In this document: one piece after another, positions 4,436 through 57,011 of the stretch | Numbering within the stretch: position 1 is the first letter of the stretch | How the letters are laid out: each line of letters opens with the position of its first letter | Assembly (NCBI GenBank): GCA_022818765.1 | Contig: CP063810.1 | Span: forward strand, 389,533-453,532 | Length of the DNA stretch: 64,000 nucleotides | Source: Bordetella sp. | GTDB taxonomy: Bacteria; Pseudomonadota; Gammaproteobacteria; Burkholderiales; Burkholderiaceae_B | Direction: 5' to 3' | Translations under genes and position numbers: made by a program | The notes under the pieces: generated by a model | The model's database searches: none | What the model saw: only the letters and a program-made list of their open reading frames with translations | What the model was told of the DNA's origin: nothing

Positions 4436-5354
4436 CTAAATTTCCCAATAAATTTTCTCTTTAGTTTGTAACATATCATCTGGGAGTTTAGATGAGAAAG
4501 ATATTTGACCATTTCCCCTGGATCATTAAAGGATAGAGTTTGAGAATGCAACATCTGTCTGGTTGCATTTGCTAAAATTTTACCGCCATATAATAAATCA
4601 CCTAATAAGGAATGACCTATTCCTGACATATGTGCGCGTATTTGATGTGTTCGACCAGTCTTTAATTTACAAATTATCTCAGTAATCAAATTATAAGAAA
4701 AGTTCCTCTGTTCAAAGGTACATAATAAGTAATAGCTGATCTAGGACAATTAGGTTTCTTCATTGTCATTCTAACTCGGTTTTTTATATCTCGTCCGATA
4801 GGATTATCAACACATCCAGAGTTTTTTATATGACCATGCACAAAAGCTCGATATTCACGATACATAGTTCGAAGTTTTAATTGAGATATGAGATTAATCC
4901 TAGATTCATTATTTCGAGCGATTACCATTAAACCTGATGTATTTTTGTCAAGACGATGAACAATTCCAGCTCTATCTAATTTAGATAATTCAGGATAATA
5001 ATATAGAAGACCATGTAAAAGTGTGCCATTTACATTATTAATTCCTGGATGTGTTACTACACCAGAAGGTTTATTAATAATGATCCAATCTGGACTTTCA
5101 GCAATAGTGTTAAAATTAACAGGTGTAGGAATTAATGTATCTGATTTGTTTTCCTCAAAAAATGTAACAATATCAAAAGGATAAATTATTTTTTTATTTT
5201 TTGAAGGTTTACCATTTACATAAATTCGTCCTTCTTCAATCCAACGTTGCAAAAAGTTTCGTGAATATTTTGATAATAGAGAAGTTAGGATTTTATCCAA
5301 TCTACCAGGTTCTAGGTTAGCAGGAATTATTATTTCCTTAAAATTTTTAGACAA
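4436..5354 (-). pseudogene. rluD: 23S rRNA pseudouridine synthase RluD, two frameshifts
   Basis: RluD converts uridines of helix 69 in 23S rRNA to pseudouridine. The first 222 residues contain the S4-like domain (GRLDKILTSLL, FLQRWIEEGRIYVNGK) and the catalytic segment RAGIVHRLDKNTSGLMVIAR with its Asp. The frame breaks near 4686-4700 and resumes with ITEIICKLKTGRTHQIRAHM. It breaks again at the C4 run at 4515-4518 and resumes as GQISFSSKLPDDMLQTKEKI, ending at 4436. Each break is repaired by one inserted base, and the repaired protein is full length with all motifs. It is divergent from bamD, as in other betaproteobacteria. It is either a recent pseudogene or a sequence error. Confidence 0.88.
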
Positions 5355-5454
5355 TTTATTTAGAAATCTTGTTAATTAAGTAAAAATATCGAATTATACA
5401 AATTATAATTAATAATAGCATTATTAAACGATCCTAAGTAAGGAAGCAATTATT

Positions 5455-6231
5455 GTGAGTTATTTTTTCAATTCTATTTGCATAAATAAATTTATTCAGT
5501 ATTTTCAAATTTTTATGATTTTGTGCAGTTTAACTTTTTTTCTTTATGGTTGTGGAAATATTTTTTTAAAATTTGATGAATTCAATAATTTAAATTTGGA
5601 AGAACTTTATTCTAAAGCTAAAAAAGAAGTTCTATTAGGTCATTGGCAGAATGCGAAAAATTATTTTAATTTGATTGAGAATAATGAATCTTCTGGACCT
5701 TATACTGCTCAATTATTACTTGATTTAGCTTATGTAAATTGGAAAGATGGAGAAAAATACAAAGCTTTGTCAATTTTAGAACAATTTTTCAAATTTTATC
5801 CAAATCATAAGAAAACAGATTCAGCTTTATATATGCAAGGCTTATTAAATATAGATTCATCAAAAATTTTAGTAAATTTTTTAACAAAACAAGATCCTTC
5901 AGAACGTGATATTGAAAATTTACGTTTATCTTATTATTCATTTGTTGAACTAATTAACAAATTTCCACTAAGTAAATATTTATTTGATGCAAAAAATCAT
6001 TCTGTCTGGTTAGCAAATACTATTGCAAAACATGAAATGAATATTGCTGAGTATTATTATAATAAAGGGGCTTACTTAGCAGCTATTAATCGCGCTCAGA
6101 TAATTATTAAAAATTTCGGAGGACTCTGTGAAATAAAAGATGCTCTTTCTCTTTTAACCAAATCGTATAAAATTTTAGATTTATTTGAATTAGAAAACGA
6201 TTTTCAGTATCTATTTAAAAAGAAGTTTTAA
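5455..6231 (+). CDS. bamD: Outer-membrane assembly lipoprotein BamD (ComL)
   Basis: BamD is the essential lipoprotein of the BAM complex that inserts beta-barrel proteins into the outer membrane. The start is GTG at 5455 with an AAGGAAG Shine-Dalgarno upstream. The signal peptide is hydrophobic and ends in the lipobox L30-Y31-G32-C33 (FFLYGCG). The mature part is a TPR-like helical solenoid with LYSKAKKEVLLGHWQNAKNYFNLIE, a YALSILEQFFKFYPNH-type repeat, and ELINKFPLSKYLFDA. The length of 258 residues is normal. It is intact between two frameshifted neighbours and nearly abuts the convergent trpS. Confidence 0.93.
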   Translation: MSYFFNSICINKFIQYFQIFMILCSLTFFLYGCGNIFLKFDEFNNLNLEELYSKAKKEVLLGHWQNAKNYFNLIENNESSGPYTAQLLLDLAYVNWKDGEKYKALSILEQFFKFYPNHKKTDSALYMQGLLNIDSSKILVNFLTKQDPSERDIENLRLSYYSFVELINKFPLSKYLFDAKNHSVWLANTIAKHEMNIAEYYYNKGAYLAAINRAQIIIKNFGGLCEIKDALSLLTKSYKILDLFELENDFQYLFKKKF

Positions 6232-6232
6232 T

Positions 6233-7242
6233 TTAAAAAATTAATTTTTTAATTCCGATCACTTCACGAATATTTTTAAGAAAAGGAATAGTTGATTTTC
6301 TAGCTTTTTCTGCTCCTAATTGCAGTATATCTTCAATTAAATTAGGATTTGACTTTAATTCTATATATCTTTCACGCATAGGTTCTAACTCTTTTTGCAA
6401 AGATTCATATAAAATATTCTTTGCTTCACCCCAGCTCATTCCTGATTTTAATTGTTCACAAAATATATCTGCTTTTTCTTTTGAAAAAAAAGCACGATAG
6501 ATCATATACACATATGAATTTTCAGAATTTTTAGGTTCACCAGATTTTCGAGAATCAGTAACAATTCTCATTATAGAAGAATATAAAAGATCTGAACCCC
6601 TTTAAATAAGGGAATAATATTGTTATAACTTTTTGACATTTTTTACCATCTAAACCAGGTAAAGTTATAGTTTTATTCTTGGATAATATTTCAGGCATTA
6701 AAAAACAATTTTTTCTATAAACATGATTAAATTTTTTGGCTATATCTCTTGCCATTTCCAAATGTTGAACTTGATCTTGACCAACAGGTATTTTATTCGC
6801 TTCAAATGTTAAAATATCAGCTGCCATTAATATGGATAAGAAAATAAGCCCATTGTAATTCCATGGTCAGAATCATATCCATTGATTATATTTTGATCTA
6901 TAGCAGCTTTATAAGCATGAGCTCGATTGAGTAAACCTTTTGGTGTTATACAAGTTAATATCCAGCAAATTTCTAAAATTTCTGGAATATCAGATTGACG
7001 ATAAAATATTACCTGGTCAGGATTAAGTCCTGCAGCTAACCATGAAGCTGCAATTTCTAAACTTGATGCTGCAATTTTTTTGGGTCAGTGCATTTAATTA
7101 ATGCATGGTAATCAGCTAGAAAAAAAAAACTTTGAACACCAGCTTTTTTACTTTCTTGAATAGCAGGTCGGATAGCCCCTATATAATTACCTAAATGAGG
7201 AGTACCTGAAGCAGTGATTCCAGTTAATATTCGAATACCCAT
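6233..7242 (-). pseudogene. trpS: Tryptophanyl-tRNA synthetase TrpRS, four frameshifts
   Basis: Class I synthetase for tRNA-Trp. The start at 7242 gives MGIRILTGITASGTPHLGNY with the HIGH-type motif PHLGNY; a TTG at 7251 is less likely. The frame breaks at four places: the T7 run at 7075-7081, near 6831-6835, the T6 run at 6639-6644, and the C4 run at 6597-6600. One inserted base repairs each. The repaired protein reads ...[76 protein letters not shown], then [15 protein letters not shown]. The third break falls inside the KMSKS codons. The gene is normally essential. No second trpS is in the window. Confidence 0.88.
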
Positions 7243-7321
7243 AATTATCAAAGTTACCTGTAAAAAATTAAAGATTTTATTTCAACTTCAAATATTTTTT
7301 TATTTATTGAATATCAAAGCA

Positions 7322-8389
7322 TCATTTAGGATAATCAATAGTTTGCATTTCAATAATTCGAGAAACAGTTCGCTTAAATTCATTTGAAAAATATCCTTCA
7401 ATATACAATTGTTGAGGATCACATTCTGCAGACATGACCAATTTAATTTTTTTATCATAAAGAATATCAATTAACCAAGTAAACCGGCGAGCTTCAGATG
7501 CGTGAATTGATTTCATTTGAAATACATTTGATAAAATAAAGTATTCAAACATGTTAGCTAATTGTAAATAATCATTTTGTGAATAAGGTTTTCCGCATAG
7601 ATTTACAAAGTCAAACCAAACGACTTTATCAAATATAGCTTTAGCAAAAATTTTTCTACTTGGAGACAATTTAATAGAACTTGGCTCTATTTTTTTTAAA
7701 TTTGAAAATTTTATAAAAATTTCCATTAGAGATGTTGATGTTTTTTCATTTAAAGGGGTGTAATACACATTATCTAATTTTTTTTTTCAATTCGATAATC
7801 TTTATTTGTATTAATACTGACTACATCCATATGTTTCTGAATTAAATTTATAGTGGGTAAGAAACGATCCCGATTTAATCCATTTAGATAAAGATTTGAA
7901 GGTTCATAATTTGAAGTTATAACAAGTGATATTCCACACTTGAAAAGTTTTAATAATAATCTATATAAAATCATAGCATCAGCAATATCTGATACATGGA
8001 ATTCATCGAAACAAATTAGACGATATTCTTTAGATAATCTTCGAGCTACTTCATGAATTGAATCTTTTGCATTTTTAATTTTCCGAAGTTCACTATGAAT
8101 TTGCTGCATAAATTCATGAAAATGAAATCTGGCTTTATTATTAGATGGTAAGCAAGAATAAAACATATCCATTATCATGCTTTTCCACGACCGATTCCTC
8201 CCCATAAATAAACCCCCTTGGAATTTTTGGAGAATATAGAAAACGTTTTATTATATTTGATTGAAGTCTTTTAAATATTAGAAAATCATCATGATATTTT
8301 TGTAAACGATCAACGACTTTCTTTTGAGATGGATCTTCTTGATAGCCAAAAACAGATAGCAAATCTTTATAACTATTACAAATAATCAT
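7322..8389 (-). pseudogene. zapE: Cell division ATPase ZapE (AFG1-like), three frameshifts
   Basis: ZapE is an AFG1/LACE1-family ATPase that associates with the Z-ring. Three reading frames together give a full-length protein. Breaks are at C5/TT (8213-8219), at a T4 run (8181-8184), and at a T10 run (7778-7787). Inserting one base at each restores PKGVYLWGGIGRGKSMIMDMFYS, with the Walker A GGIGRGKS, then LICFDEFHVSDIADAM (Walker B), and finally DYRIEKKKLDNVYYTPLNE. The middle break interrupts the Walker A motif. The gene follows lpd by 3 bases, the usual odh-operon tail position in Bordetella-like genomes. A run of ten A on the coding strand is long enough for polymerase slippage. Confidence 0.87.
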
Positions 8390-8392
8390 TTT

Positions 8393-9826
8393 TTAGAAAT
8401 TTAAAGATCTTTTTTCAACTCCTAAAGCTGCTTCCTTCAAAACTTCAGATAGAGTTGGATGAGCATGACAAATTCGAGCAATATCCTCTGAAGCCCCTCG
8501 AAATTCCATAATAGCAACTGCTTCAGCAATTAATTCTGAAGCTAATGGGCCTATTATATGAACTCCTAAAATTTCATCTGTCTTGAAATCAGAAATTACT
8601 TTTGCAAATCCAGAAGTTTCATCTAATACACGAGCTCTCCCATTAGCTAGAAATGGAAATTTTCCAACTTTATATTTTCGACCTTCTTTATTCAATTGTT
8701 GTTCATTTTTTCCTACCCAAGCAATTTCAGGAGAAGTATAAATTACCCATGGGATTGTGGCAAAATTTACATGAGTATGTTGTCCAGCTATGCGTTCTGA
8801 AACAGCAATACCCTCCTCCTCCGACTTATGGGCTAACATAGGTCCTCGAACAACATCGCCAATAGCCCAGACATTTGATAAATTTGTTTTACAATTTTCA
8901 TCAACAATTATGAAATTATTTTCATCAATACTTAATCCAACAGTTTCATCATTTAAACCACCTATATTAGGAACTCGACCAATTGATACAATTACTTTAT
9001 CCACTGCAAGATTTTTAAGTTTATTTTGAGAATTAAAATAATTTATACTAACCGAATTTTGGTCAATTTTTGTATCCTCAATTTTTGCCTTCAGCTCTAT
9101 ATCTAAACCTTGTTTGCTAAAAATTTTAAAAGCTTCTTCAGCCACTTGTCTGTCAACACCAGGAAGAAATTCAGTCATTGATTCTAAAATTGTAACTTGA
9201 GAACCTAAACGACGCCAAACACTTCCCATCTCAAGACCTATAACCCCACCACCCACTATACATAATTTGCTTGGCACATTATTGAGTCTTAATGCACCGT
9301 CATTGGATAGTATTAATTTTTCATCAAATGGTAAACTAGGCAATTTTCGTGGCAATGATCCTGTTGCAATTATAATGTGTTTGGCAGAAACTGTTTTTTC
9401 AAGACCCGTTTTAACATTCTCTATTTTAATCGACCAATTTATAGATGTTTTACCTAAAAATGAAGCTTTTCCATGGAAAAAAGTCACTTTGTTTTTCTTC
9501 AACAAATGTAAAATCCCATCATTATTCTGTTTTATGATTGAATCTTTCCTACCAATCAATGTATCTATATTAAGTTTCAGATTATCTATTTCAATTCCAT
9601 GTTTAGAAAGATGTTTAATTTTTTCAAAATATTCAGAAGAATGCAGTAAAGCTTTTGAAGGAATACAACCAACATTAGTACAAGTTCCTCCAGGAGCAGC
9701 TCCTCCTTGAGAATTTTCCCAATTATCTACACAAGCAACAGACATGCCCAATTGAGCAGCACGGATTGCGGAAATATATCCTCCAGGTCCAGCTCCAATA
9801 ACAATAACATCAAACTTTATAGACAT
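8393..9826 (-). CDS. lpdA: Dihydrolipoamide dehydrogenase (E3)
   Basis: FAD enzyme that reoxidises the dihydrolipoyl group of 2-oxoglutarate dehydrogenase (and, if present, pyruvate dehydrogenase), reducing NAD. The 477-residue protein is complete. It has the FAD-binding GAGPGGY (residues 11-17), the redox-active pair C49/C54 in GGTCTNVGCIPSK, the NAD-binding GGGVIGLEMGSVWRRLG, AIGDVVRGPMLAHKSEEEG, and the C-terminal catalytic HAHPTLSE. It is the third gene of sucA-sucB-lpd-zapE on the minus strand, with about 100 bases to sucB. No break in its frame despite many A/T runs. Confidence 0.96.
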   Translation of the reverse strand: MSIKFDVIVIGAGPGGYISAIRAAQLGMSVACVDNWENSQGGAAPGGTCTNVGCIPSKALLHSSEYFEKIKHLSKHGIEIDNLKLNIDTLIGRKDSIIKQNNDGILHLLKKNKVTFFHGKASFLGKTSINWSIKIENVKTGLEKTVSAKHIIIATGSLPRKLPSLPFDEKLILSNDGALRLNNVPSKLCIVGGGVIGLEMGSVWRRLGSQVTILESMTEFLPGVDRQVAEEAFKIFSKQGLDIELKAKIEDTKIDQNSVSINYFNSQNKLKNLAVDKVIVSIGRVPNIGGLNDETVGLSIDENNFIIVDENCKTNLSNVWAIGDVVRGPMLAHKSEEEGIAVSERIAGQHTHVNFATIPWVIYTSPEIAWVGKNEQQLNKEGRKYKVGKFPFLANGRARVLDETSGFAKVISDFKTDEILGVHIIGPLASELIAEAVAIMEFRGASEDIARICHAHPTLSEVLKEAALGVEKRSLNF

Positions 9827-9925
9827 TTTTATCTACCCATTAATAAGAAACGTAGAGAATTGGAAAATTAAATTTTATAAAAATGATTTTCATAACTTTT
9901 TTCAAATTAATATAATTTTCAAAAA

Positions 9926-11121: not shown

Positions 11122-14017
11122 TCATTTTTTAAACAAAAAATTTATTTCCGAAGAAAATGCTTTTTCAATTAAAAATCTTTGTTGTTCTAAATGTTTTGAA
11201 AAATAACCAACAGCAGGTGATGCAGAAGATGGACGTCCTGCATATCCTAATTTTTGATTTTTGATCATATTTTCATATAAATTATGTTGCATAGAAGACC
11301 AAGCTCCTTGGTTTTGAGGTTCATCTTGTACCCAAACAATCTCTAATAAATTAGAATACTTAGAAAGTTCTTGTTGAAAAATTTTGTGATCAAAAGGATA
11401 AAGCTGCTCAATTCGAATAATTATTATATGATTTGCAGAATATTCTTTTCGAGCATTAACCAGATCATAATAAATTTTTCCTGAACAAATCAAAGCACGT
11501 TTTATAAACGTGCAATCACTTTTAGTGAAATCATTCGTCTCTCCAATAATAGAATGAAAATAACTATCTGATAAATCGGTTAAAAGAGAACTTGCTTTTT
11601 TATTTCGTAAAAGTGATTTAGGTGTAAAAATAATCAATGGTTTTCGAAAATGACGAATCATTTGGCGACGCAGAACATGGAATATCTGAGCAGCAGTAGT
11701 TGGTTGAACAACTTGCATATTATTATCAGCAGATAATTGTAAATAACGCTCTATTCGCCCTGATGAATGTTCCGGACCTTGACCCTCATATCCATGAGGC
11801 AACATCATAGTTAAACCTGATTGACGACCCCACTTAGCTTCTCCAGAGCTGACAAACTGATCAATAACAACTTGAGCCCCGTTAGCAAAGTCACCAAATT
11901 GTGCTTCCCATATAGTCAAAGTATTAGGTTCGGAACATGAATAACCATATTCAAAACCAAGTACAGCTTCTTCTGAAAGAACAGAATCTATCACATTAAA
12001 TGTAGCTTGTTTTTCAACAATATTTTTCAATGGCACATATGTTCCATCATTCCAACGCTCTCTATTTTGATCATGTAAAACTGCATGACGATGTGTAAAT
12101 GTGCCTCGCCCAGAATCCTGTCCTGTAATTCTAACTGCGTAACCAGAAACTAACAAAGTAGCAAAAGCTAAATGCTCTCCCATTCCCCAATCCAAGTTTA
12201 AATCACCATCAATCATCTTTTTTCGATCATTTACCAATTTTACTACTAAAGGATGAAGAGTAAAATTATCAGGAATACTCGAAATCCGATAACCGACACG
12301 TTTAAGCTCAGAAATAGGCACTGCTGTATCAACATGATCAGATAAATTTGCTGACCTAAGAAACGGAGCCCAATCAATAGCGTATTTACTTTTATAATCA
12401 GTTAACACTGGTTCAATAGTGCGTCGCCCATCTTCTAAAAATTGACGATAATCTTTAACCAATTTTTCTTCTTGAGATTTAGTTAAATAATTCTGAGCAA
12501 TTAATTTATCAGCATAGAGTTTTCTAACACCAGGATGTTGATTAATTCGTTTATACATTAATGGTTGAGTCAATAATGGCGTATCTTGTTCATTGTGACC
12601 TAACTTTCTGAAACAAACAATATCAATTACCACATCTCTGCCAAATTTCATTCGATAATCCAAACCTAACTGTGTAACAAAAACAACTGCCTCTGGATCA
12701 TCTCCATTGACATGAAATACTGGAGCTTCAATCATTTTTACTACATCAGTACAATATAAGGAGGATCTAGAATCTCTGGGATCAGAGGTTGTGAAACCAA
12801 TTTGGTTGTTAATTACAATATGTAATGTTCCACCAGTTCCATAACCACGTGTTTGAGCAAGATTAAGAGTTTCCATTACAACTCCTTGCCCTGCAAAAGC
12901 AGCATCCCCATGAACTAAAATAGGTAAAATTTGCTTACCTTCAAAATCATTTCGTCTTTCTTGTCTAGCACGAACACTGCCTTCTACAACAGAGTTAACA
13001 ATTTCCAAATGAGATGGATTAAATGCTAGAGATAAATGTACTGGCCCACCCCTTGTACAAAGGTCACTAGAAAACCCATTATGATATTTTACATCTCCAT
13101 CGGTTAAGTTTTCAGAATATTTACCTTCGAATTCTGCGAACAAATCAGCCGGCATTTTACCCATAATATTAACCAGCATATTTAATCGTCCACGATGAGC
13201 CATTCCAACTACTATTTCTTGGATGCCAGATTCTCCTGCATGATTGATCATTTCATTCATAGAAACTATGAAACTTTCACTTCCTTCTAACGAGAATCTC
13301 TTTTGTCCAACATACTTATTATGCAAAAACCTTTCTAAACCTTCAGCTTCTGTTAATATCTTTAAAATATCCAGTTTTTTTTCTGAATTTAATAAAGTTT
13401 TCCCGTGACTCGATTCCATTCGCTCTTGAATCCAACGTTTTGCAGAAGGATCCGAAATATACATAAATTCAGCTCCAATTGAATGACAGTATGTATCGTG
13501 TAATGATTTTAAGAATTGGCGCAGAATCATAATATTAATAATTTTAAAAAGTTATTAGTTAATAAGTATTTTTGATTGAATAATCCTGATCTAAATCAGA
13601 TTCGGTTAATCCATAAAAAGCAGGATCTAATTCTGGAATTTCTCGATGTTCTTGTCGTTCAAGAGGATCTAAATTTGCCCAAAATGTGCCAAGTGTGCGA
13701 TAAGCTGTAATTAAACGTTGTATACAATTCTGTTTGGAAGCAATCGAAGAATTCGATTCTATAGAAACAGATTTATTGAAAAATGCATTAGATCGTCCTC
13801 TTTCAACAAATGCTTTGATAATAGGACTATGAGATTGATCATAGGTGTATTCTTTTCCATCTGTTGCTGGAATATGTTGCAACTTATCGAAATACTTTCG
13901 CCAAGAATTAGAAACAGAGCTTGGATTTCCCAGATAGGATTCATAAAGCTCTTCTATATATGGTGCATTACTTCCATACAAATAAGATGTTGAGAGCGAT
14001 TCTTTATTTGATATCAT
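11122..14017 (-). pseudogene. sucA: 2-oxoglutarate dehydrogenase E1 (SucA), split by frame disruption
   Basis: Thiamine-diphosphate E1 component that decarboxylates 2-oxoglutarate. The N-terminal part starts best at 14017 (MISNKESLSTSYLYGSNAP), followed by APYIEELYESYLGNPSSVS and IPELDPAFYGLTESDLDQ, and stops at 13559. The remaining 802 residues run from ATG 13530 to 11122. They contain the catalytic core: GMAHRGRLNMLVN, HGDAAFAGQGVVMETLNL, FRKLGHNEQDTPLLTQP and MMLPHGYEGQGPEHSS. The junction at 13531-13565 has stops in each frame; two single-base insertions join the halves by my reading. The second ORF has its own ATG, so two polypeptides are also conceivable. It is the first gene of the odh operon. 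Confidence 0.85.
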
Positions 14018-17252: not shown

Positions 17253-20200
17253 TCAATTCTCAAAAAAAGTTTGATATACCAATGCAACACCATTATGCGA
17301 CCCTCCTTTTATATCAAATGTCCAATCACGCGACAAACGATAACTAATTCGTCCTAATGTTTCACTGCTTGCAATGGCCTGTTCAATACTTAATGTAATA
17401 CCATTCGAAAAATCTTTTCTAGCAACTAAAAACTGTGTTTCTACATTATTAGGATTATTCTTGCTAAGAATGCTTGCTGCCGTTTTATCTGGTAATAACC
17501 CGACCAATTTCCACCAATATCACCTTTCCGAGCTCTAATATCACTTAATCCTAATTGTTTAAAAAGTTGTAGTTTTCCATTTAATAGAGCATTTCCGATA
17601 GAAATTAAGAGTGCTTTATCAGCTATATCATCAGATTCACGTCCAAGAATTAACCATGATAATTTTTCTAGATCATTTACATTTGGATATGATATCAAAC
17701 TAATTTTTGGTCTTTGGGCTGTTTTTTGAATATGAATTCCAGCTTCAATTTGTTCACCTACACGCAAAGCTTCTATATCTAAATGTGGATTATTTAAACT
17801 TCCTTGAAAAAATAGTTGTCCATGACGTAGTTTTAAACGTTGACCATAAGCTTCAATTGTACCATCTGATGTAGTATGCAATACTCCTGAACTTATAAGT
17901 GCTTTATTTTCTTCTTTAAGGTTAAAAGTTATTGATCCTATCAAACCAGTATCTAAGCCTAGACCCGTCAACCGAAAATAATAACCTGTATCAAATTTTA
18001 GTTTTATTTTTTTTAATGCAGAAATTGATGTTTTCTTTATTGCAATACTATTTCCTGTCTGAATAACATCATCATCTAAAATTTGCGGTACATATTCTAT
18101 ATTTACCAATCCTGTATTCGCTATTAACTGACCGTCAATTTTGATATCTGTTAAATTAGATAATGAAGTAATTATTTTACCAGATGATATTATATAACGA
18201 TCAGGTCTTTGAATAATTGGAAATTGATTCATAAAGATTTTAAATTCACCCTTACCTGTATTGAGATAAAAGCTGCCAGCAATTTTTGCATATCCATTTT
18301 GGATGTCTAATTTTTTGTCTACCCATTCTCGAACTTTGGAATTCGATGGAATAAATTTTAAAACTGTAGGAAAATGAAATGATTCTATTGTAAGTTTTTC
18401 ATTATTAATATTTGCTAATAAATTACCATTAATTAATCGAATTCCTTCTTCGATTTGAATAATAGAAATTTGCTTACCTTCAATGATACCTTGAGTATTC
18501 CAATAATTATTTTTAAATTTTTGAGATCTTATATGTATTTTAAATATTCCATTAAATTTTAAATCTGTTTCAAAAAGAGAATTTAACCAATCTAAATCAT
18601 GAATTTCAGCATCTGTTTGGATAAATATAGGGTAATTTTTATCTAATTTAAATAATTTTTGATCATTAAAAAAAATAGCAAATGAAATCTTGTTTGTAAT
18701 CAAAGAATTAGGAAATACAGGTATATTAAAATATACTTTAACCTCGCTTTTTATATCATTTATAGGTGTTAAAATAACATCAGCAGAAATAATGTTTGAT
18801 TCCATGCTTTTTTTGTGTATATCATTAGAAAAAATGTGAATTTCACCTGAAATGATTTTGCAAAATTTTAAATCCCAAGTCCCATCGAAGATTCCTAAAT
18901 GTTCTTTTTTAAAAATTAATGGTAAAGTTAAGTTTTTTTTAAAAAAGAAATTTTTTCTTCAAAAATATTTACTATTTTATAGATATCTTTAGTATTTATA
19001 CTCAGATTCTTAAAGAATCCTTTTGTTGTCCATTGTGTAAAATTTCCGCAAGATTCTAAATGTTGAAAGATTAAATCAGGAAGATTTATATGATGAAACA
19101 TCATTTCAAATGGTTCTAATTTCCATAGAATTTTTTTTGGAAGTTTTTTAAAAAAGCTAATATTAGCAGAAATAACATCATTATTTTTTATTAAAAAATC
19201 ATCTGTTGTAACTTCTATATTTAAAAGATTTATAATCCAATCTGAACTATCAATGAATTTTTTTATTGTTGAGTTAGATAAATTTTTTGAAAATTCCAAT
19301 GATGCTTTCATATGAATATCAGAAATCATATTGCTAAAAAATAAAGAAAGATTCTGATTGGATTCTAAAGGAGTAAACGATGAATTAAAAAATACATCAT
19401 ATTTTCCGGATTTTCCCGCAAAATTTACTTGTATTTTGGTTTTACCAAAAAGCATAGGAGAAAGTTCAGACAAATTATTTGCGGATATATCAAATAAAAC
19501 ATGATGATTAGATTTTGAACAATATTTGCCTTCTGAAAAAAAATTATTACAGCCCAGATTTATATTCATATTGAAATCAATATTTTGCAAATATGTCTCT
19601 TTTAATTCTACTAAATTAGAACTGAATTTATTTTGAATATCTTTATTTTTAAAACAAATTCTTGATTGAAATATGCCATTTATATTTTGGCTATTCCATT
19701 TACTCTCAGTATCTATTTTTAAATCAATATTGATTTTTCAAGATTTTTTTTATCATAAAATAAAAAATTGAATATAATTTCAGTGGTTAAAGAAGTAGTT
19801 GGAAATTTATTATGTATAAGATTTTCTAAATTTATGTTATTTGTTAAAACTTTAATTTCCAAATAATTATATAGATTGATTTTTTCATCAGATTGCTGCA
19901 AATTTAGAGAGGCAGATATAAAGCAATCAAGTTGACCTAAGTATATATCTAAGTTTGCAAAATTAATTGATGTTCTTTTTGTTTGAAAAATTTTTATTTC
20001 TTGATCAGAAAAAATTTGATTTTGTAAGCTTAAATTATTATCACTTAATTTTTCTATAGTTCCATTAAATTTAATTTTACAATTGGATAATAAATTATCT
20101 GTTTTAGAAAATTCGATATTCTCAATAATGTTTCTTTTTTTATTAAAACAATCTTCCTTGATAGATCGGTTCGTGATATCCATTTCTACAAAAAATGGCC

Positions 20201-20783: not shown

Positions 20784-22620
20784 AATACAATTCCTAAAGA
20801 AAAATGTAATCGAATCTTTTTTTCGAGTTGATTATAAATTAAATCTAGAGATAAAGGACTTGCCAAAGTTCGTGCGCGGATTCCTATACCATAATCCATA
20901 TTTACGCCAATACTTCTGAATGAATTTTCACTATTCCAAGTTTCAATAAATAAGCCCAATCCCCATTTATCAGTAAAATCATGTTCGTATTCCAAGCTAA
21001 CTAATGCTAATGCTGAATCAGCAATTTCGCTTTTTTTTCGGCGCACTATATTTGATCGAAAACCAAAATCATATGGAAATTGGCTGTTTTTTGTATAAAC
21101 TTTACCGATTTCCAAATGAGAACTAATAACATTTGACCTTCCTATAGATTTCCATTCTTGCAGTCGCAATTTAACTCTGGCATATGGATTAACTTCATTA
21201 ATAGTTGATCCTAATCCAAAACCAAATGTAATCAAATCGCCATTTCGGGGATTATACTTATTATCTATATTTCGTTTAGTCCAATCAAAAGTTGCTGTAA
21301 TTGAAGATAATTGAAAGCTAGCATTATCTTTAATTCTTGTTTGATAGTCATATGCTAATAAAGAACCTAAGCGTTTTTCATATTCAATAGATTTTCCATT
21401 ATTTTTGATACATATTTGCCTAATATTTGTTGCTCCGAGTGCTAATCGAATTATTTTCATATCTTGAATATTAGAATGATCTGCTAGCAAACCAATAGCA
21501 TCTTTATTTTCATTTGAATTAGAAGGAAAATTAATATCAATAAAAGCCCGCTGTCTTAAACGATCTATCGCCAATCCAGTAGATAGAATTAATGGAAAAT
21601 CATGATAACGAAATATATTTTTTCGATAGAGACTTTCTAATTGCACACCTGTTCCATCATCTATACCAAATGATAAAGCTATTTGTTTTGCTGGAGCTTC
21701 TATAACCATAATTTGAACAGGAAGAATTAATTCAGAATTAAATTAAAATCATCTTTTGAAAAAGATTCTCCATTTTCTTTATATAAATCATTTTCCAAAA
21801 GAAATTTATTATTTTCATAATATGGCAGGAAAGATATTTCTGTAATTGGATTAACTAAAGAAATAAAGACACCTCGGAATAATCCAGTAGCTTGAAGATT
21901 CTTCTGCCATGTGTTAATGCGTTTTTGATTGAAAGGTTCTCCCTTTTTATAATCAATATATTGATTTATTATGTTTTCAGGTATTCGCTTAAAACCATAA
22001 GTATACAGAGGGCCCATTAATATTCGTGGACCACTATCAATATGAACCGACAAATTAACTTCATTTTTCTCCAGATTAACTGTTGCACTAGAATGAATGA
22101 TATGTGCAAGCATGAAGCTCTGCGAGGAAATTTCATCTAACAAAGAAAATTTTATTTTGTTCCAAGATTTATTGCTAAAAGGTTGTCCTATTTGTGAATC
22201 CCATGCTTCGCGTAATTGATCTATTTTTTTGAAATCTATATCTGAATTTGAAGGATCTACTCTATAGGAAATTTTAAGATCCACACTTGATATTATAGTT
22301 CTTTCTCCTAAAGATATTCTAATACAATATAAATTTAAATATTTATTATTAATAGCAAAAGTGACTGTAGAAGAGAAATACCCTTCAGCAGCTAACGCTG
22401 CTCGAATTTCATCATGCATTACCTTGTGCAAATGCTCTACTCCTCCTGCACTATCATCTTGATTAGACGATAGTGCAGAAACCATACTAATAGTATTTTT
22501 TACTACTATTAAAATATTTGAAGTTTCGTGATTTGATTCAATAATTATCTCAGGGTAAGGAGCTCCCCTAATGATACTGCTATATGCGACAGCAAAAAAA
22601 ATTGCCAGAATTCGGCTCAT
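20780..22620 (-). pseudogene. tamA: Outer-membrane Omp85 protein TamA, one frameshift
   Basis: TamA is an Omp85-family barrel with three POTRA domains, acting with TamB in outer-membrane protein and lipid traffic. A signal peptide (MSRILAIFFAVAYSSIIRGA) is followed by POTRA modules, such as IRAALAAEGYFSSTVTFAI and NLQATGLFRGVFI. The barrel part begins QIMVIEAPAKQIALSFGIDDGTGVQLE and ends in the aromatic HFSLGIVF. A single -1 break near 21724-21735 (stop at 21727) separates the halves; one extra T restores LNLILPVQIMVIEAP. The barrel loop that normally holds the conserved (V/L)RGY motif is shortened to SNIVRRKKSEIADSA, so the hallmark L6 motif is not recognisable. Confidence 0.82.
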
Positions 22621-22634: not shown

Positions 22635-23722
22635 TTAAATAACACTCTTTACAACAATTGGTGGAATCTTAGCAGTCATATCATGTGGTAAAACAGATAT
22701 GTTGATTGCTAGCCTACGAGCAATTTCTAAAAAATAGCTTGCATCTATACTTTCTATGTTTGATTCTACAATAGGAATTCCTATATCAGATTGTTCACGT
22801 ATTGTTTTTGTTAAAGGCAAGCTTCCAAGCCATGGCACATTATATTGATTTGCTAAATTTTGACCACCCTTTTCTCCAAATATATGCTCAATTCTATTAC
22901 ATTGAGTACATATATACATTGCCATATTTTCAATAATCCCTAAAATTGGTATTTTGATTTTCTGAAACATTCTTAAACAACGTCTAGCATCTATTAGAGA
23001 AATATCCTGCGGTGTTGTGACAATAACAGCTCCTACTACTGGTACCTTTTGAGCTAAAGTTAAAGCAATATCACCAGTTCCAGGAGGCATATCTATAATT
23101 AAGTAGTCTAATCCAAACCAATTTGTTTGATACAATAATTGTTCTAAAGCTTTGGCAACCATTGGTCCACGCCAAATTGCTGGTGAATCAGGATTTATTA
23201 AAAATCCAATGGAATTAGTTTGCAATCCATAACCAATTAACGGTTCCATATTTTTCTGGTCTAAGGATTTTGGTCGATCTGATATCCCTAACATAGTTGG
23301 AATACTAGGTCCATAAATATCTCCATCAAGAATTCCAACTTGAGCTCCCTGCTTTGCTAAAGCTAATGATAAATTAACAGAAATAGTACTTTTTCCAACA
23401 CCTCCCTTTCCGGATCCAACTAGTATAATATTTTTAACGTGACTTAATATTTTTAATCCAAATTGGACTTTATGAGGAATTATTTTCCAAGAAATTTCGA
23501 GATTTGAAATTTTTATTTCGTATTTTTCCAAAGCGTTGTTAATTAATAAACGAGCTTTATCTAACATATCATTAGCAGGAAAATCTAATTCAAATTTTAA
23601 TTTGATTGGCGAGTTTTCAGGAGGGTTGATAGAATTTTTTAAAAAATGTGATAAATCCAAATCAATGTTTGGATATTTGATAGTTTTATTGCAGTGCGAA
23701 TTTGATCTATTGTCACAACCAT
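22635..23722 (-). CDS. apbC: Iron-sulfur cluster carrier ATPase ApbC/Mrp, N-terminal frameshift
   Basis: P-loop NTPase that carries and transfers Fe-S clusters. The catalytic part is intact: VGSGKGGVGKSTISVNLSLALA, GILDGDIYGPSIPTMLG, LDYLIIDMPPGTGDIALTL, and the cluster-binding CTQC pair at YICTQCNRIEHIFG. The frame of the ATPase is open only from a TTG at 23660. An ATG at 23722 in another frame gives MVVTIDQIRTAIKLSNIQTL, the expected start of the N-terminal DUF59 domain. One base inserted at AAA (23659-23661) joins them as TLILDLSHFLKN. The gene is therefore full length with one -1 shift near residue 20. Divergent from metG. Confidence 0.88.
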
Positions 23723-23959: not shown

Positions 23960-25647
23960 ATGTCTAGAACTTTATTTGTTACAACAGCTTTACCTTATGC
24001 TAATGGATCTTTTCATATTGGTCATATTATGGAATATATTCAAGCCGATATTTGGGTACGATCAATGAGAATGTCTGGTCATACAGTCTATTTTATATGC
24101 GCAGACGATGCCCATGGTGCTCCAATCATGCTAAAAGCTGAGAAAGAAGGGCTATCTCCAGATAAATTAGTCAAACTCTATACAAGAGAACGAAAAAAAT
24201 ATCTGAATGGTTTTCAAATAGAATTTGATCATTGGCATTCAACTAATTCAGCAGAAAATAGGCAATTATGTTGTGATACCTATTATCTTTTAAAGAAAAA
24301 TGGTTTTATTGAAACACGAAGTATTGAACAATTTTATGATCCAATTAATGGAATGTTTTTAGCAGATCGTTACATTAAAGGGGAATGTCCAAAATGTCAT
24401 GGAAAGGACCAATTTGGTGATTCTTGCGAATTGTGTGGTGCTATTTATTCACCTGATGAATTAATTCAACCTTATTCAGATTTAAGTGGAACTAAACCTA
24501 TTAAAAGATTCTCTGAACATGTTTTTTTTAAATTATCAGATCCAAATTGTATAAAATTTTTAAAAAATTGGGTTGCTGGAAAAAATTCATCTGGCAATTT
24601 TCATTTACAAACTGAAGTACAAGCTAAAACATATGAATGGTTAGGTATAGGAAAAAATAAATCTTCCTTAAAAGATTGGGATATTTCTCGAGATTATCCT
24701 TATTATGGAATTGAAATTCCTGATCAGCCTGGCAAATACTTTTATGTTTGGTTAGACGCAACAATTGGATATTTATCATCGTTAAAAGCTTATTGTACTT
24801 TGAAAAAAATTGATTTTGAATCTTTGATAGCTCCAAACAGTAATACTGAACAAATACATTTTATTGGAAAAGATATTATTTATTTTCATACATTATTTTT
24901 ACCTGCAATATTGAAATTTTCAGGCAGAAAAACTCCAGATACATTAAATGTGCATGGTTTTATTACTATAAATGGAGAAAAAATGTCAAAAAGTCGAGGA
25001 ATTGGTATTTGTCCTATGCAGTATTTAAAAATAGGTATGAATCCAGATTGGATACGTTATTATTTTGCATCAAAACTTAATCATAGAATTGAAGATATTG
25101 ATTTTAATTTTCAAGAATTTACAAGCCGAGTTAACGGAGATTTAATTGGAAAATATATTAATATTGCTAGTCGAACATCTAATTTTATTACAAAATGCTT
25201 CAATGGAGTTTTAGATTATGAAGAGGAAACTCAAAAAATATTATTGGATGATATAAAACATAGAACTAATTCTGTCCGATTGCTTATTGAAAATAGAAAT
25301 TACCGTTATGCAGTACGTGAAATTATGAATTATGCTGATCATATTAATCAGAATATAGATACCGCAAAACCATGGGTGTTAAATAAAGCAACAGAAAATC
25401 TGAAAAATGAGCGCAATCAATTGCAACACGCATGTTCGAATGCTTTAGCTGGTTTCAAAGCATTAACTGTAATGCTTTGCCCTATTCTTCCAAAGCTTAC
25501 GACATGTATTGCCAAAAATTTTTTAAAATTGATACTGATTTTAAATGGCAAGATGCAAGTATCTTGCCTAAAAATATATTGCCATTCAAGCATTTTGTGG
25601 AACGAATTGATCCAAAAATGATAGAAAAATTGTCCTCAAGATTGTAA
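23960..25647 (+). CDS. metG: Methionyl-tRNA synthetase, C-terminal frameshift
   Basis: Charges initiator and elongator tRNA-Met. The ATG at 23960 gives MSRTLFVTTALPYANGSFHIGH with the HIGH motif. A zinc knuckle follows (ECPKCHGKDQFGDSCELCG, four Cys), then FYVWLDATIGYLSS and the KMSKS motif in INGEKMSKSRGIG. The original frame ends at 25621 with an unrelated tail. One base inserted in the A5T6 run at 25514-25524 restores the family ending KFFKIDTDFKWQDASILPKNI...FVERIDPKMIEKLSSRL, stopping at 25647. About 45 residues are affected. At ~560 residues it lacks the C-terminal tRNA-binding/dimerisation domain of E. coli MetG. Confidence 0.92.
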
Positions 25648-27505: not shown

Positions 27506-28233
27506 ATGGCTGGACACAGTAAGTGGGCAAATATTCAACATCGGAAGACGCGACAAGATATTAAACGTTCTAAATTATGGACTAAAGTAATTCGTGAAAT
27601 AACTGTGGCTGCACATATTGGAAATTCTTGTTCTGATAATCCTAGGCTACGAATAGCTTTGGATAAAGCAGCAAATTTTAATATACCCAAAGATAATATT
27701 CAAAAAGCAATCAATCGTGGTCTTGGAAAAAAAATTCTTCCGATTATGAAGAGATACAATATGAAGGATATACATCTGGTGGAGCCGCTGTTATTGTTAA
27801 TTCAATAACAGATAATCGTTCTCGTACAACGTCTAATATCCGCCATATTTTTAAAAAATATGGCGGCAATCTAGGCCAAAATGGCTCTGTATTATTTTTA
27901 TTTAAAAAATATGTTCAATTTATATTTTTTCCTCACACATTGGAATCTGATTTGATGGAGATTGCTATAAATTCAAAATCTGATGATATGTATATGAATC
28001 AAGAAAATCTTTTAGAAATCACTTCTTTACCAGAAAATTATGAAAATGTTCTTAATGCAATTAATCTTGCAAAAATAAAAATTAAAGAACATCAGTTAAT
28101 TTTAAAACCAATAAGCACAATAAATTTAAACGAAGAAAATATGTTAAAAACACGAAATTTAATTAATGCCTTGAATCTTTTAGATGAAGTACAAGAAATT
28201 TATACGAACTGTATTTTTAGCAAAAAATTTTAA
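27506..28233 (+). pseudogene. yebC: YebC/PmpR family protein, one frameshift
   Basis: YebC-family proteins bind DNA or act on ribosomes at proline stretches; the exact role varies by organism. The N-terminus is typical: [18 protein letters not shown], then [27 protein letters not shown]. The frame breaks at an A8 run at 27727-27734. One added A restores [35 protein letters not shown] and continues through GGNLGQNGSVLFLFKK to the stop at 28233, giving about 242 residues, normal length. An AGGAAT Shine-Dalgarno lies 6 bases before the ATG. It heads a plus-strand run with hemF and nadD. Confidence 0.88.
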
Positions 28234-28235: not shown

Positions 28236-29163
28236 ATGGATAATATTTTGTACCACCTGTTCGAAATTATTTATTAACTCTACAAAGAAAAATCGTTAAG
28301 GAATGTGAGAAATTTGAAAATTCTTCATTTATACAAGATCGTTGGATTTTTAAAGAAAAGGATAGTGAAGGCATATCTTGTTTAATTGAAAATGGAAAAA
28401 CATTCGAAAGAGCAGGAATTTTATTTAGTCATGTAAAAGGAAAAAAATTGCCAAGGTCGGCTAATGTAATTTCAGAATTAGAAATTAGTCAAACTGAAAA
28501 TTCATTTTGGCAAGCTATGGGGCTTTCTATTATATTTCATCCACGTAATCCTTACGTACCAATTATACATATGAATGTTCGCATGTTTATAATAAATAAA
28601 GATAATAGTCAAAATAATATAGTATTTTGGTTTGGTGGCGGAATAGATTTAACGCCTTGTTATGTATATGAAGAAGATATTATTCATTTCCATAAAACTT
28701 GTTATAAAGCGCTTTCCCCATATGGACATGATTATTACCCAAAATATAAAAAATGGTGCGATAATTATTTTTTTTAAAACACAGAAATGAAATGCGTGGA
28801 GTTGGTGGAATATTTTTTGATAATCTCAATGAGCTTGGTTTTGATAAATCATTTTCTTTAACTCGATCAGTAGGTAATGCATTTGTAGAAAGTTACTTCC
28901 CAATTTTAATAAAGAGATATATGACTCCCTATGGAGAAAAAGAACGTTTTTTCCAAACTTATCGACGTGGTCGCTATGTTGAATTCAATTTAATTTTAGA
29001 TAGAGGCACTATATTTGGCTTACAATCAGGAGGTCGTACAGAATCAATTCTTTTATCCATGCCACCACTTGCCAGATGGTCTTATAACTGGAAGCCTAAA
29101 AATAATAGTCCCGAATCAAATCTTACTAAATATTTAAAACCTCGTAATTGGTTATTTTTATGA
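28236..29163 (+). pseudogene. hemF: Oxygen-dependent coproporphyrinogen III oxidase HemF, two frameshifts
   Basis: Decarboxylates coproporphyrinogen III to protoporphyrinogen IX in aerobic heme synthesis. The likely ATG is at 28236, two bases after the yebC stop. One missing base near 28245-28253 puts the rest (PPVRNYLLTLQRKIVKE...FIQDRWIFKEKD, GKTFERAGILFSHVKG) in a different frame. A T8 run at 28768-28775 breaks it again; with nine T the protein reads [23 protein letters not shown]. Conserved blocks include [48 protein letters not shown] and [17 protein letters not shown]. The repaired protein is about 309 residues, full length. Its stop overlaps the nadD start. Confidence 0.87.
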
Positions 29164-41852: not shown

Positions 41853-42211
41853 TTACGAGACATGTTGAGAAGTTTTTTCAATAGTATCACTTTCAGCTAC
41901 AGCCACCATACTGGATGGTAATGTTCTTGCTTTTTTTGTCTTGATCAGTAAATAGCGAAGAATTGAATCATTATAGCGAAAAGAATACTGAAGCTCGTCA
42001 ATAGTAGCATGGCTGCATTGGATATTCATACAAATATAATGGGCTTTGATTAACTTTTGTATTGGATAAACCAATTGTCTGCGGCCCCAATCTTCTATAT
42101 TGTGAATAACACCCCCTGAGCTACAATCAAGGAGCGATAACGCTCTGTCATTGATGAAATTTGTTCACTTTGATCAGGGTGAACAATGAACACCACTTCG
42201 TAGTGACGCAT
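41853..42211 (-). pseudogene. rpsF: 30S ribosomal protein S6, one frameshift
   Basis: S6 binds 16S rRNA with S18. The ATG at 42211 follows a strong Shine-Dalgarno (TGAGGAAATCTACTA). The first part reads [21 protein letters not shown] and [11 protein letters not shown]. It then runs into a C5/G5 homopolymer at 42112-42116, where the frame shifts and a stop soon follows. One added base restores [27 protein letters not shown] and then [21 protein letters not shown] to the stop at 41853, giving about 119 residues. The intact tail begins at an ATG-less frame, so there is no natural restart. A ribosomal gene with a strong RBS and perfect flanks argues for sequence error or recoding over decay. Confidence 0.9.
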
Positions 42212-46933: not shown

Positions 46934-49161
46934 TTATTTTAACCCTTCTAAGAAGCTTTTAAGCTTCTCAACTCTACTTGGATGACGCAATTTTCTCAAA
47001 GCTTTAGCTTCAATTTGTCGAATTCTTTCTCGAGTTACATCAAATTGTCTACCAACCTCTTCAAGAGTTTGATCCGTATTCATTTCTATTCCAAAACGCA
47101 TGCGCAAGACTTTTGCTTCACGAGGAGTTAAAGAGTCTAAAACCTCTTTCACAACATCACGCATGGAACCATGTAAAGCAGCATCAGATGGAGCAAGTGT
47201 CGAAGAATCTTCAATAAAATCGCCTAAATGAGAATCATCATCATCTCCAATAGGAGTCTCCATTGAAATTGGCTCTTTAGCAATTTTTAATATTTTTCTT
47301 ATTTTTTCCTCAGACATATCCATTTTTTGAGCAAAAGTAGCCGGGTCAGGTTCTGTGCCTGTCTCTTGCAAAATTTGTCGACTAATTCGATTCATTTTAT
47401 TAATTGTTTCTATCATGTGAACAGGAATACGAATAGTTCGTGCTTGATCTGCAATAGAACGAGTAATAGCTTGCCGAATCCACCATGTTGCGTATGTTGA
47501 AAATTTATATCCTCGTCGATATTCAAATTTATCAACAGCTTTCATCAGTCCTATATTTCCTTCTTGAATCAAATCAAGGAACTGTAATCCACGATTTGTA
47601 TATTTTTTAGCTATAGAAATAACTAAACGTAAATTTGCTTCTGTCATTTCTCTTTTAGCCTTCCTAGCTCTTGCTTCACCAGTTGCCATTCTTTTATTAA
47701 TATCTTTTAAATCCTTTAATGGAAACATAATTTTATTTTGAAAATGAATTAATTTTTTTTGCAATTCTTGAATAGGAGGAATTTGACGTTTAAGAGATTC
47801 AGAAAAACTATTCTCATTAGATGTTTCGTTTAATATCCAGTTAATATTAGTCTCGTTTCCAGGAAATATTTTAACAAAACGAGATCGAGACATTCCTCCA
47901 CGATTCACACAATTATATAAAATTTCTCGTTCAATTTTACGTATTTCATCAACCTTTATACGAAGTGTATCTGCTAGTTTCTCAACCATTTTTGCTGTAA
48001 AACGTATTCCAATCAATTCGTTCTGAACAGATTTTTGAGCAGTTTCATATTGTTCTGATTTATAGCCATAAATTCTACAAAAATCTTGCATCTCTTTAAA
48101 TTGAAAAGCGACTTTTTCAAATTTTGATAAACTTTTTATGTGAAGGTCTTCTAATTGTTTACTTGACATTCCTCCTGCTAATCCATCTTCTATCTCATTT
48201 TCCTCAAAAATCGATCCCGAACCAGCATACTCTTCCCCGTCTTCTGGATCTATAAGTCCATCAACAATTTCATCAATTTGTAACTTTCCTTCATGAAGAC
48301 GAGATACATGTACTAAAATTTCCTGAATTGTTATAGGGCATGCTGAAATAGCTATTATCATATGTTTTAAGCCATCTTCAATCCGTTTAGCTATTTCAAT
48401 CTCACCTTCACGAGTTAAAAGATCTACAATTCCCATTTCTCGCATATACATTCTTACTGGATCTGTAGTACGACCAAAATCTGAATCAACTGTTGTTAGA
48501 GCTACTTCTGTTTCATCTTCTACATCATCATCATTTGTATCCACAGGAGTATTTTCACTCATAAGAAGCATTTCGGCATCAGGAGCTTGATCATAAACAG
48601 AGATACCCATATCGCTAAATGTGCTAATAATTCCATCAATCGCTTCCGCATCTACTAAATCATCAGGCAAATGATCGTTTATTTCTCCATATGTAAGATA
48701 TCCACGATCTTTTCCTAATTTAATTAGTTGTTTTAGTCGATTTCTTCTTGCTTCATATTCTTCCTGAGATACAGGTCCACGAACTATTAATTCTTTAGAA
48801 TCGTTCTTTAATCGTTTACCGACACGTTTGATAATTTTTAGTTCTGCCGAATTATGCTCATTATTATCTGAATCATTTTTTGAATCATGATTGATATTTT
48901 TTTTATTAAAATTTACAATATTTTCGTTATTTTTTTTGTTTAATGGTGGTCGACCAGGTCGGCGAGAAATCACTCCTGAATTTTTTTTATTTCCTTTTTT
49001 CCAGTTCCAAGTTTATTAATTATTTCTGTTTGTTTTTCTTTACTAGTTTTTTCTGAAGAATTTTTATTTAGAAGTAAATTTCTACCATTCTTAATTTTTT
49101 TTGCCTTTTTAGGTTTTTTTAAAATATCAACAAGAGTGTTTTTTCCGGTAAATTTGGTCAT
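46934..49161 (-). CDS. rpoD: RNA polymerase sigma factor RpoD (sigma-70), N-terminal frameshift
   Basis: Primary sigma factor. The main 679-residue frame runs from a GTG at 48973 and contains region 1.1 ([20 protein letters not shown]), 1.2 ([11 protein letters not shown]), region 2 ([46 protein letters not shown]), region 3, and region 4 ([39 protein letters not shown]). Upstream, ATG 49161 opens [20 protein letters not shown], the Lys-rich start expected in beta-proteobacterial RpoD. A T8 run at 48981-48988 separates them; one more A on the coding strand gives [16 protein letters not shown]. Translation from GTG alone would still give all functional regions. Confidence 0.93.
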
Positions 49162-51146: not shown

Positions 51147-51181
51147 TAAATCTAACGACCTAAATTTGCAATATAAGAATA

Positions 51182-51455: not shown

Positions 51456-51477
51456 ATATGAGAATAATATGAGAATA
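51456..51477. repeat. Two tandem copies of ATATGAGAATA upstream of rpsU
   Basis: The 11-base unit ATATGAGAATA occurs at 51456-51466 and again immediately at 51467-51477. It lies about 60 bases upstream of the rpsU start on the other strand. Two copies only; could be a regulatory site or a chance slippage duplication. Confidence 0.45.
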
Positions 51478-51568
51478 AATAAATTCGGAGATTTTAAATA
51501 TACTCTAGTATTATCAATAAGATTCATCATTCTAACATGTGAGTATTATCTTATCTACCAAAGAAATA

Positions 51569-52113
51569 TTAGGATTTTAATCCTCTCCTCCTAACCCATG
51601 CTTCTAATTGATGTGGTTGTAAACTATCATAATCCTCAAATGGTTGATGAATCCAAGGGTTTTTATGTAAATTACAAACATGATAATCAGGGATTATTTT
51701 AGAATGTCCCTTACACCATAATACCGCTCCTCTTAATTCTGTAATGTCTGAAAATTCCTTTCTTAAATGATTATAAACATTTTTAAAAGTTAACCCTGTA
51801 TCAACCATATCATCTACTAATAATACTCGACCTGATAATGTATCTCTTGTGATAGTAATAAATTTTGCAATATCTAAAATTCCTTGCTTTGTTCCTGAAG
51901 CCTCACGATAACTGCTAGTAGCTAAAATTCCTAAAGGAACATTAAAAATCCGAGACATAACATCGCCAACCCTCATCCCACCTCGAGCTAAACATAGAAT
52001 TTGATCAAATTTCCAATTTGAACAATGCACCTTAAAGCTAAACATTCAATCAAATAATGATATTCATCCCAACTAACCCATTGATGGCTATCATCATTGG
52101 ATGAGATACTCAT
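51569..52113 (-). pseudogene. Purine-type phosphoribosyltransferase, one frameshift
   Basis: PRPP-dependent transferase of the Hpt/Gpt group, probably salvaging hypoxanthine, guanine or xanthine. The ATG at 52113 opens MSISSNDDSHQWVSWDEYHYLIECLAL, the family start. One base is missing at TT (52032-52033), after which the frame reads KVHCSNWKFDQILCLARGGMRVGDV, then the PRPP motif RVLLVDDMVDTGLTF and the end NPWIHQPFEDYDSLQPHQL. One added base joins LALKVHCSNWKF. An internal ATG at 52045 in the second frame gives a 158-residue product lacking the first ~25 residues. It follows purA on the same strand, as in Burkholderiales. Confidence 0.86.
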
Positions 52114-52180
52114 GAATAAAAAATCCCCCATTAGAATTAAAACACTTTATAGCATTAAATTTTAATTCAAATTTATAGAA

Positions 52181-54714
<2,534 letters not shown>

Positions 54715-54792
54715 TTTATGAAATGACTTTAAAAAATATGCAAAATATCAATATATTTAATAGAATTTAATAATTTTTTATTTACTGAATAG

Positions 54793-55662
54793 TTATTTAT
54801 TAGGTCCTTTTATAAATTGAAAAAACTCTGAATTCGAATCAATAATGAAAGTATCTTTTTGATCAGAGAATAAAGATTTATAGGATTCTAAACTTTTATA
54901 AAATTTATAAAAATCAGAATTTTTTCCAAAAGCTTTAGAATAAATAGAACTAGCTTCAGCTTCACCTTCCCCAATAATTGATTGGGCTTTAGCATGTGCT
55001 TTTGCGACAATCTCCTCACGTAAACGATCAGCTTCGGCTCGGATTTTTTCACTTTCTGCTGCTCCAATAGAACGCAACTCATTAGCTACTCTAGTTCTTT
55101 CAGCTTCCATTCTTCGATACACTGATTCAGAAATCTCTGGAGCTAATTCAATTCGACGCAAACGTACATCGACAACTTCTATGCCTAGAGGTTCTGCACG
55201 TTTTTCTACATTGTTTAATATTTCTGTCATAACAGTCCCACGTGCTGTAGAGACAACATCTTTAACAGTTCTTACATTAACAGAAGCATTTAAAGCGTCT
55301 CGAATTTGAGCTTGCAAACGTTCTTGAGCAGCGCGTTCATTACCTCCAAATGTAACATAAAACAAACGTGGATTAGATATTTTCCATTTCACATACGAAT
55401 CTATTAGCAAATTTTTCTTTTCTGAAGTTTGAATGCGTTCTGCATCTTTCGATTCAATAGTAAGAATTCGTTTATCGATCGAAACAACATTTTGAAATGG
55501 CTGCGGCAATTTAAAATAAAGACCAGGTTCGTTAATAACTTTTTTAACTTCCCCTAATGTAAATACAAGTGCATATTCACACTCATGAACTATAAACATA
55601 GTGGAAATTATCAGAACAATTGCAACAGGTAGAGCAACTAAAAATGGGAAAAGTCGTTGCAT
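54793..55662 (-). CDS. hflC: HflC, FtsH-modulating membrane protein
   Basis: Inner-membrane SPFH (prohibitin) protein that with HflK forms a large complex around the FtsH protease. The 289-residue protein has an N-terminal signal anchor (FLVALPVAIVLIISTMFIV) and the SPFH domain beginning HECEYALVFTLGEVKKVINEPGLYFKLPQPFQ. The tail contains RIELAPEISESVYRRMEAERTRVANELRSIGAAE and then the alanine/glutamate-rich coiled-coil KAHAKAQSIIGEGEAEASSIY. Complete. Its start lies 25 bases after the repaired hflK stop, on the same strand. Confidence 0.94.
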   Translation of the reverse strand: MQRLFPFLVALPVAIVLIISTMFIVHECEYALVFTLGEVKKVINEPGLYFKLPQPFQNVVSIDKRILTIESKDAERIQTSEKKNLLIDSYVKWKISNPRLFYVTFGGNERAAQERLQAQIRDALNASVNVRTVKDVVSTARGTVMTEILNNVEKRAEPLGIEVVDVRLRRIELAPEISESVYRRMEAERTRVANELRSIGAAESEKIRAEADRLREEIVAKAHAKAQSIIGEGEAEASSIYSKAFGKNSDFYKFYKSLESYKSLFSDQKDTFIIDSNSEFFQFIKGPNK

Positions 55663-55687
55663 AGATTAACATGATCTCCGAATAAAA

Positions 55688-57011
55688 TTATCGAGATGAA
55701 GATCGATTGCGTAGTAACCGATCTCGACTATCAGAATTATTATTAAGATTTTCTGGATTTGAGGATTGAACAGTATTTGGTGATTGATTTGTTAAAGAAT
55801 TCCCAATAGAGTTAATATTTGAATTATCTAGCTGGGAATAATCAGATTTAACTGATTCTTGGAATCGAACATTTTTATCAAAAATAGGAAATACATCATA
55901 TTGTTTCGATTATTGCTATCAATTAAAACTTTATTAACATTTGAAAACATTTGATGCATACTTTCCAAATACATTCTATCTTGAGTAATTTTTGGTGATT
56001 GTTCATATTCGACTAAAATACTAGTAAAACGCGATGCACTACCTGTTGCATCTCCAATTAACTTAGCTTTATAACCCTCCGCTTGTTCTATCATGCGTGA
56101 AGCCTGCCCACTTGCCCAAGGAACAACTTGGTTTGCATATGCTTGTCCTTCATTAATTTGGCGTTCTCGATCTTGCCCTGCTTTTACTGCATCATCAAAA
56201 GCTGATTGTACCTGCTCGGGGGTTGAACATTTTGTATAGCAACAGTATTTACTAGAATCCCTGCTTCATAATAATTTAAAATTTGCTGCATTAAACTCTG
56301 TACCTCAGCTGTTACCTCTGTACGACCTTCATACAGAATAAAATCCATTGGTTTTTTTCCAACAATTTCACGCATAGCTGTTTCAGCAGCTTGTCGAACT
56401 GAATCATCAGGACTCCGCATTTTGAAAATATAATCCGGTGCACCATCTATTCGAAGCCGGTACTGCACTACAAATTGCATATCAACAATATTTTCATCAT
56501 TTGTTAGCATTAAAGCTTCAGATAACATTTTATTGCGCGAACTTCCTCTAAAACCAATTTCAAATGTGCGTAATTGTTCAGTATTTACAACTATATGTTT
56601 TTCAATCGGAAATGGTAATCTCCATTGAAATCCAGATTGGACTGTACGATTATATTGACCAAATTTTGTAATAACAGCTACTTGCCCTTCTTGAACAATA
56701 AAACATCCACTAAACAACCAAAAAGCAGAAATTATAGCAATCACTAGACCTAAGATAAAAACAGTTTTTCCAGAATTCGGAGATTTCGATTGTTTCACAG
56801 AATTATTCATTCCATTTTCTTTATGCTTTGTATTGCTAAAAAAGTTTCCAATTCTATCATTAAAATCTTTCCAAACTTCGTCAAGATCAGGCGGATTATC
56901 CTTATAAATTCGTTCATTATTTTTAGAATCAGATTCTTTTGATTCATTACTATTTGAAAAACGTCCCCAACTAGGATCGTTCAGATTAAATATATTATAT
57001 ATTCGAGGCAT
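55688..57011 (-). pseudogene. hflK: HflK, FtsH-modulating membrane protein, two frameshifts
   Basis: HflC partner. The first frame begins MPRIYNIFNLNDPSWGRFS, then a polar cytoplasmic segment, a TM helix (TVFILGLVIAIISAFWLFS), and the SPFH domain with GCFIVQEGQVAVITKFG. It breaks at a G5 run at 56218-56222; one more base restores QNVQPPEQVQSAFDDAVKAGQ and leads through QASRMIEQAEGYKAKLIGDATG. A second break at AAA (55889-55891) removes the true C-terminus. With one more base it reads MYFPIFDKNVRFQESVKSDY and ends SRDRLLRNRSSSR at 55688. The repaired length is about 442 residues. hflX, usual between hfq and hflK, is missing. Confidence 0.86.

Follow-up and report, generated by a model that had tools for sequence, protein, structure and literature searches.

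The window analysed here, a stretch of 64,000 nucleotides (bases 389,533-453,532), lies on the single contig of 866,396 bp that makes up an AT-rich, reduced genome of ~30% GC. The nearest genomes place it in the Burkholderiales, in a genus without a second member among the genomes listed. Among reduced genomes, the nearest relative that the search gave was one of 820,037 bp from another genus of the same family (G007), which may resemble Candidatus Kinetoplastibacterium. Open reading frames of G007 and of several free-living members of this family were used as references for a purpose-written, frameshift-aware local protein-to-DNA aligner, in which missing and extra bases are allowed. The pass of this aligner over the window returned 20 one-base losses: one each in rluD, tamA, apbC, metG, yebC, hemF, rpsF and rpoD, two in hflK, three each in zapE and tamB, and four in trpS. 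Closer alignment added a second rluD site (near 4520) and a site at 52032 in a phosphoribosyltransferase gene, giving 22 losses in 13 conserved genes. Together with a junction in sucA, the sites are as follows, in coordinates of the window.

4510-4530, minus strand: rluD, second loss, near the C-terminus; alignment with a frameshift restores the family C-terminus (a G4 tract according to the earlier note)
4695-4712, minus strand: rluD, first loss, in a T4 run; 3/3 references
6590-7090, minus strand: trpS, four losses, near 7080 (A7), 6832 (short tract), 6644 (A6) and 6600 (G4); 3/3 references at every site
7755-8220, minus strand: zapE, three losses, near 8212 (G5), 8177 (A4) and 7782 (A10 tract within the plausible interval); 3/3 references
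13530-13562, minus strand: sucA linker, net gain of one base, with a stop-free frame only if two bases are missing; 4/4 of the listed references, from the alignment and the DNA
17495-19745, minus strand: tamB, three losses, near 19733, 18945 (A8) and 17503 (G3); 3/3 references
21700-21745, minus strand: tamA, one loss, placement uncertain over ~42 nt; 3/3 references
23675-23695, minus strand: apbC (Mrp), one loss (A4) within the N-terminal region, less secure; 1/3 references extends there
25495-25530, plus strand: metG, one loss, placement uncertain, with A5/T6 within the interval; 3/3 references
27720-27735, plus strand: yebC, one loss, A8; 3/3 references
28765-28782, plus strand: hemF, one loss, T8; 3/3 references
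42112-42128, minus strand: rpsF, one loss, with a G5 tract within the interval; G007 reference
48940-48985, minus strand: rpoD, one loss in the N-terminal region, less secure; 1/3 references at the standard penalty, a second at low penalty
52020-52040, minus strand: phosphoribosyltransferase gene beside purA, one loss; 4/4 references
55885-56220, minus strand: hflK, two losses, near 56216 (C5) and 55893; G007 reference

The apbC and rpoD sites are less secure because the N-terminal parts of these proteins are weakly conserved. At the sucA junction, removal of one base at 13549 left in-frame stops, whereas addition of two bases opened the frame. Two missing bases are therefore the better reading of this junction than a net +1 gain, as the earlier note had supposed. 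The same note had counted about 25 shifts in 14 genes. The 14 genes were recovered, and the count came to ~24 (22 losses plus the two in sucA); a second shift proposed for hemF was not confirmed by alignment to relatives, leaving one loss in that gene.

The affected genes are housekeeping genes, and trpS, metG, rpoD and rpsF among them are essential. Mean identity to the references was 0.60 for shifted and 0.57 for intact genes (p = 0.31), indicating that the two groups are equally conserved. The tryptophanyl-tRNA synthetase (TrpRS) gene, which carries four losses and lies in three pieces, was located only in the window; a search of the genome for a second or intact TrpRS copy found none. Its Pfam family has one further member in this genome, encoded by an intact gene at another locus and presumed to be TyrRS.

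The same alignment was conducted on ten other 20-kb stretches of the 866-kb chromosome, four of which flank the window, mostly with one reference per site. These stretches yielded 20 further losses and at most two gains, both insecure: one (in stretch L108) fell in a match of 38% identity and the other (in L109) near a C-terminus. The latter gain, at L109:18614, lies in a run of T close to the C-terminal end of a 384-aa protein and may be an ordinary C-terminal difference. Window and sample combined gave 40 pipeline-called losses (20 and 20) over 158.5 kb of coding sequence covered by the alignments, a rate of 0.25 per kb, with 28 of 162 genes affected. Against these 40 losses stood at most three gains, sucA being counted among them. 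No internal nonsense codon was found in the same 158.5 kb, which bears out what had been noted for the window; three of the four stops flagged were at alignment ends, and the fourth fell in a brief alignment antisense to a conserved gene. The effect had been described as a property of positions 4436-57011, but the density of losses was similar elsewhere, indicating that it is genome-wide instead. The rate was roughly even along the genome, with mild clustering of the shifts (dispersion 1.34, p = 0.02) that ranged from seven in trpS-zapE to zero in 16.6 kb of stretch L107. We infer uneven read depth or coverage as the simplest reason for this clustering; a few truly decaying genes could also produce it.

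The losses depended strongly on base runs. Runs of at least four bases were touched by 35 of the 40 sites, compared to 14.4 expected and a maximum of 26 in 1000 random draws of coding positions. G/C runs of at least four (tracts of 4-6) were touched by 11 of the 40 sites, compared to 0.5 expected. Among the 31 tightly placed sites, the coding tracts affected were 6 of 21 for G5/C5, 3 of 132 for G4/C4 and 2 of 63 for A8/T8; the per-tract risk thus increased with length and was highest for G/C, with G5/C5 exceeding A8/T8 by a factor of ~10. For ~5 of the 40 sites, the plausible interval contained an A/T tract of eight or more bases (zapE 7782, tamB 18945, yebC 27728, hemF 28775 and perhaps rpoD). 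Most of the sites were in short or G/C tracts, consistent with the earlier remark that most are too short for slippage. A search for a slippery motif common to the loss sites found none beyond runs of any base. Systematic undercalling was considered as well, as it would leave a truncated homopolymer spectrum; the spectrum was not cut relative to that of G007, indicating that any undercalling is sporadic.

The two rRNA operons of the genome were then compared. Over 5,574 aligned bp they showed zero substitutions, one N and four single-base length differences (TT/T, G6/G5, A4/A3 and G3/G2), all in single-base runs. Three of the four were inside the 23S gene, where bases were lost at columns invariant in 6/6 relatives, one base in copy 1 and two bases in copy 2. 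The resulting density, four events per 11.1 kb or 0.36 per kb, agrees with that of coding DNA, given the wide uncertainty that attaches to a count of four. True mutations of this type in 23S rRNA are expected to harm ribosomes. Moreover, four indels would not be expected to have arisen between operon copies so similar that not one substitution sets them apart. As rRNA is untranslated, losses there separate the possible explanations: they are predicted by consensus error but by neither gene decay nor slippage rescue. In one variable helix, both 23S copies (L169 and L170) also carry a short insertion, six bases or longer, which is absent in six relatives. An oddity of tRNA-Cys, with the anticodon at position 33, was considered as a further RNA lesion and set aside, as the same form occurs in G007.

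Taken together, the frameshifts of the window are very probably residual consensus errors of the assembly, and the genes would be intact in the organism. The missing single bases would fall mostly in homopolymers, and the visible events would amount to ~0.25 per kb in coding DNA, over the whole 866-kb chromosome. We infer read and consensus error as the cause from the losses and their bias, their dependence on tracts, their genome-wide spread, and the losses of the same type between rRNA operons at invariant positions. Homopolymer undercalling in the assembly was also the reading preferred at the outset, and it gains from the 23S losses, the genome-wide density and the excess in G/C tracts. 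It has been reported that errors of long-read assemblies are mostly false deletions in homopolymers of 2-8 bases, with a peak at 4-5 (PMC12007338). The losses described here resemble the Kastor-corrected indels of that study, namely, false single-base deletions in homopolymers of 2-8 that split conserved genes, the likeness being one of profile. However, A/T errors were more numerous there, whereas G/C tracts were affected more per tract here.

Alternatively, real -1 deletions in A/T homopolymers may be compensated by RNA polymerase slippage, which restores the frame in part of the transcripts. In Buchnera and Blochmannia, slippage-rescued indels are located in long poly(A) or poly(T) runs, one example being 11 bases long, and Blochmannia carries 4-8 such genes per genome (PMC5009743, PMC3017870). 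The present genome is similarly AT-rich and reduced (30% GC, 866 kb), with genes otherwise intact but for a missing base, and the few sites where the plausible interval includes A8-A10 or T8 would fit this published precedent. Nevertheless, such frameshifts characteristically occupy A/T tracts of about 9 bases or longer, which is not the pattern here; most sites are in runs of 2-7, many of them G/C, with up to four in one gene, and the per-tract risk is lower at A8/T8 than at G5/C5. Four shifts in one gene would also compound the loss of full-length product, and slippage gives no account of losses at invariant 23S positions. We consider this mechanism very unlikely as the general explanation. 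The earlier note had offered it for the A8-A10 tracts; it is needed at no site, while the ~5 A8-A10/T8 sites are individually possible. It is improbable, though less so than rescue throughout, that a minority at these tracts (in zapE, tamB, yebC and hemF) are real deletions, kept in the population via frame restoration by transcriptional slippage and hidden among sequencing errors.

That the genes are true pseudogenes of an endosymbiont whose genome is eroding seems still less probable. Homopolymer indels do cost reduced genomes genes, and the shifts are mildly clustered by gene, as decay might leave them. However, a decaying genome would show nonsense codons, insertions beside deletions and relaxed conservation; instead, the 40 losses came without an internal nonsense codon and with almost no gains, conservation was undiminished, essential genes were among those affected, and the same lesion was present in rRNA. 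Least credible of all is genome-wide translational frameshifting, by which ribosomes would tolerate or correct -1 deletions. It would suit the single direction of the losses, but the sites share only runs of any base, and the rRNA losses are outside the reach of translation. Consensus error fits each of these observations: deletions dominate at homopolymers, untranslated invariant sequence is affected as well, and the rate is roughly even genome-wide.

As biology, the frameshifts would have no significance, since almost certainly none of the genes is truly broken; as a matter of data quality, they are of consequence. About one conserved gene in six was split in the sampled stretches, and any tally of pseudogenes, of lost pathways or of apparently absent essential genes (e.g., trpS) that was based on this assembly would therefore be in error. 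Comparison of rRNA operon copies within an assembly provides a simple, read-free test that separates such error from endosymbiont gene decay.

As a control, 196 kb of G007 were analysed by the same method, and only one gene looked truly multi-shifted, with three losses, which favors consensus error in the studied genome. The other apparent G007 shifts were rejected, being mostly mirror images of truncated open reading frames of the studied genome that had served as references. The multi-shifted gene (L119:5726-7021) showed three -1 shifts relative to an intact 448-aa homologue of the studied genome (L102:12595-13941), and it is either a pseudogene or an error in the G007 assembly. In the studied genome, a run of ~1 kb of N with scattered single Ns around it (L171, G000:C1:551794-553066) adjoins one rRNA operon; these Ns look like a draft consensus that was left unfinished, although the data provider may instead have masked the bases.
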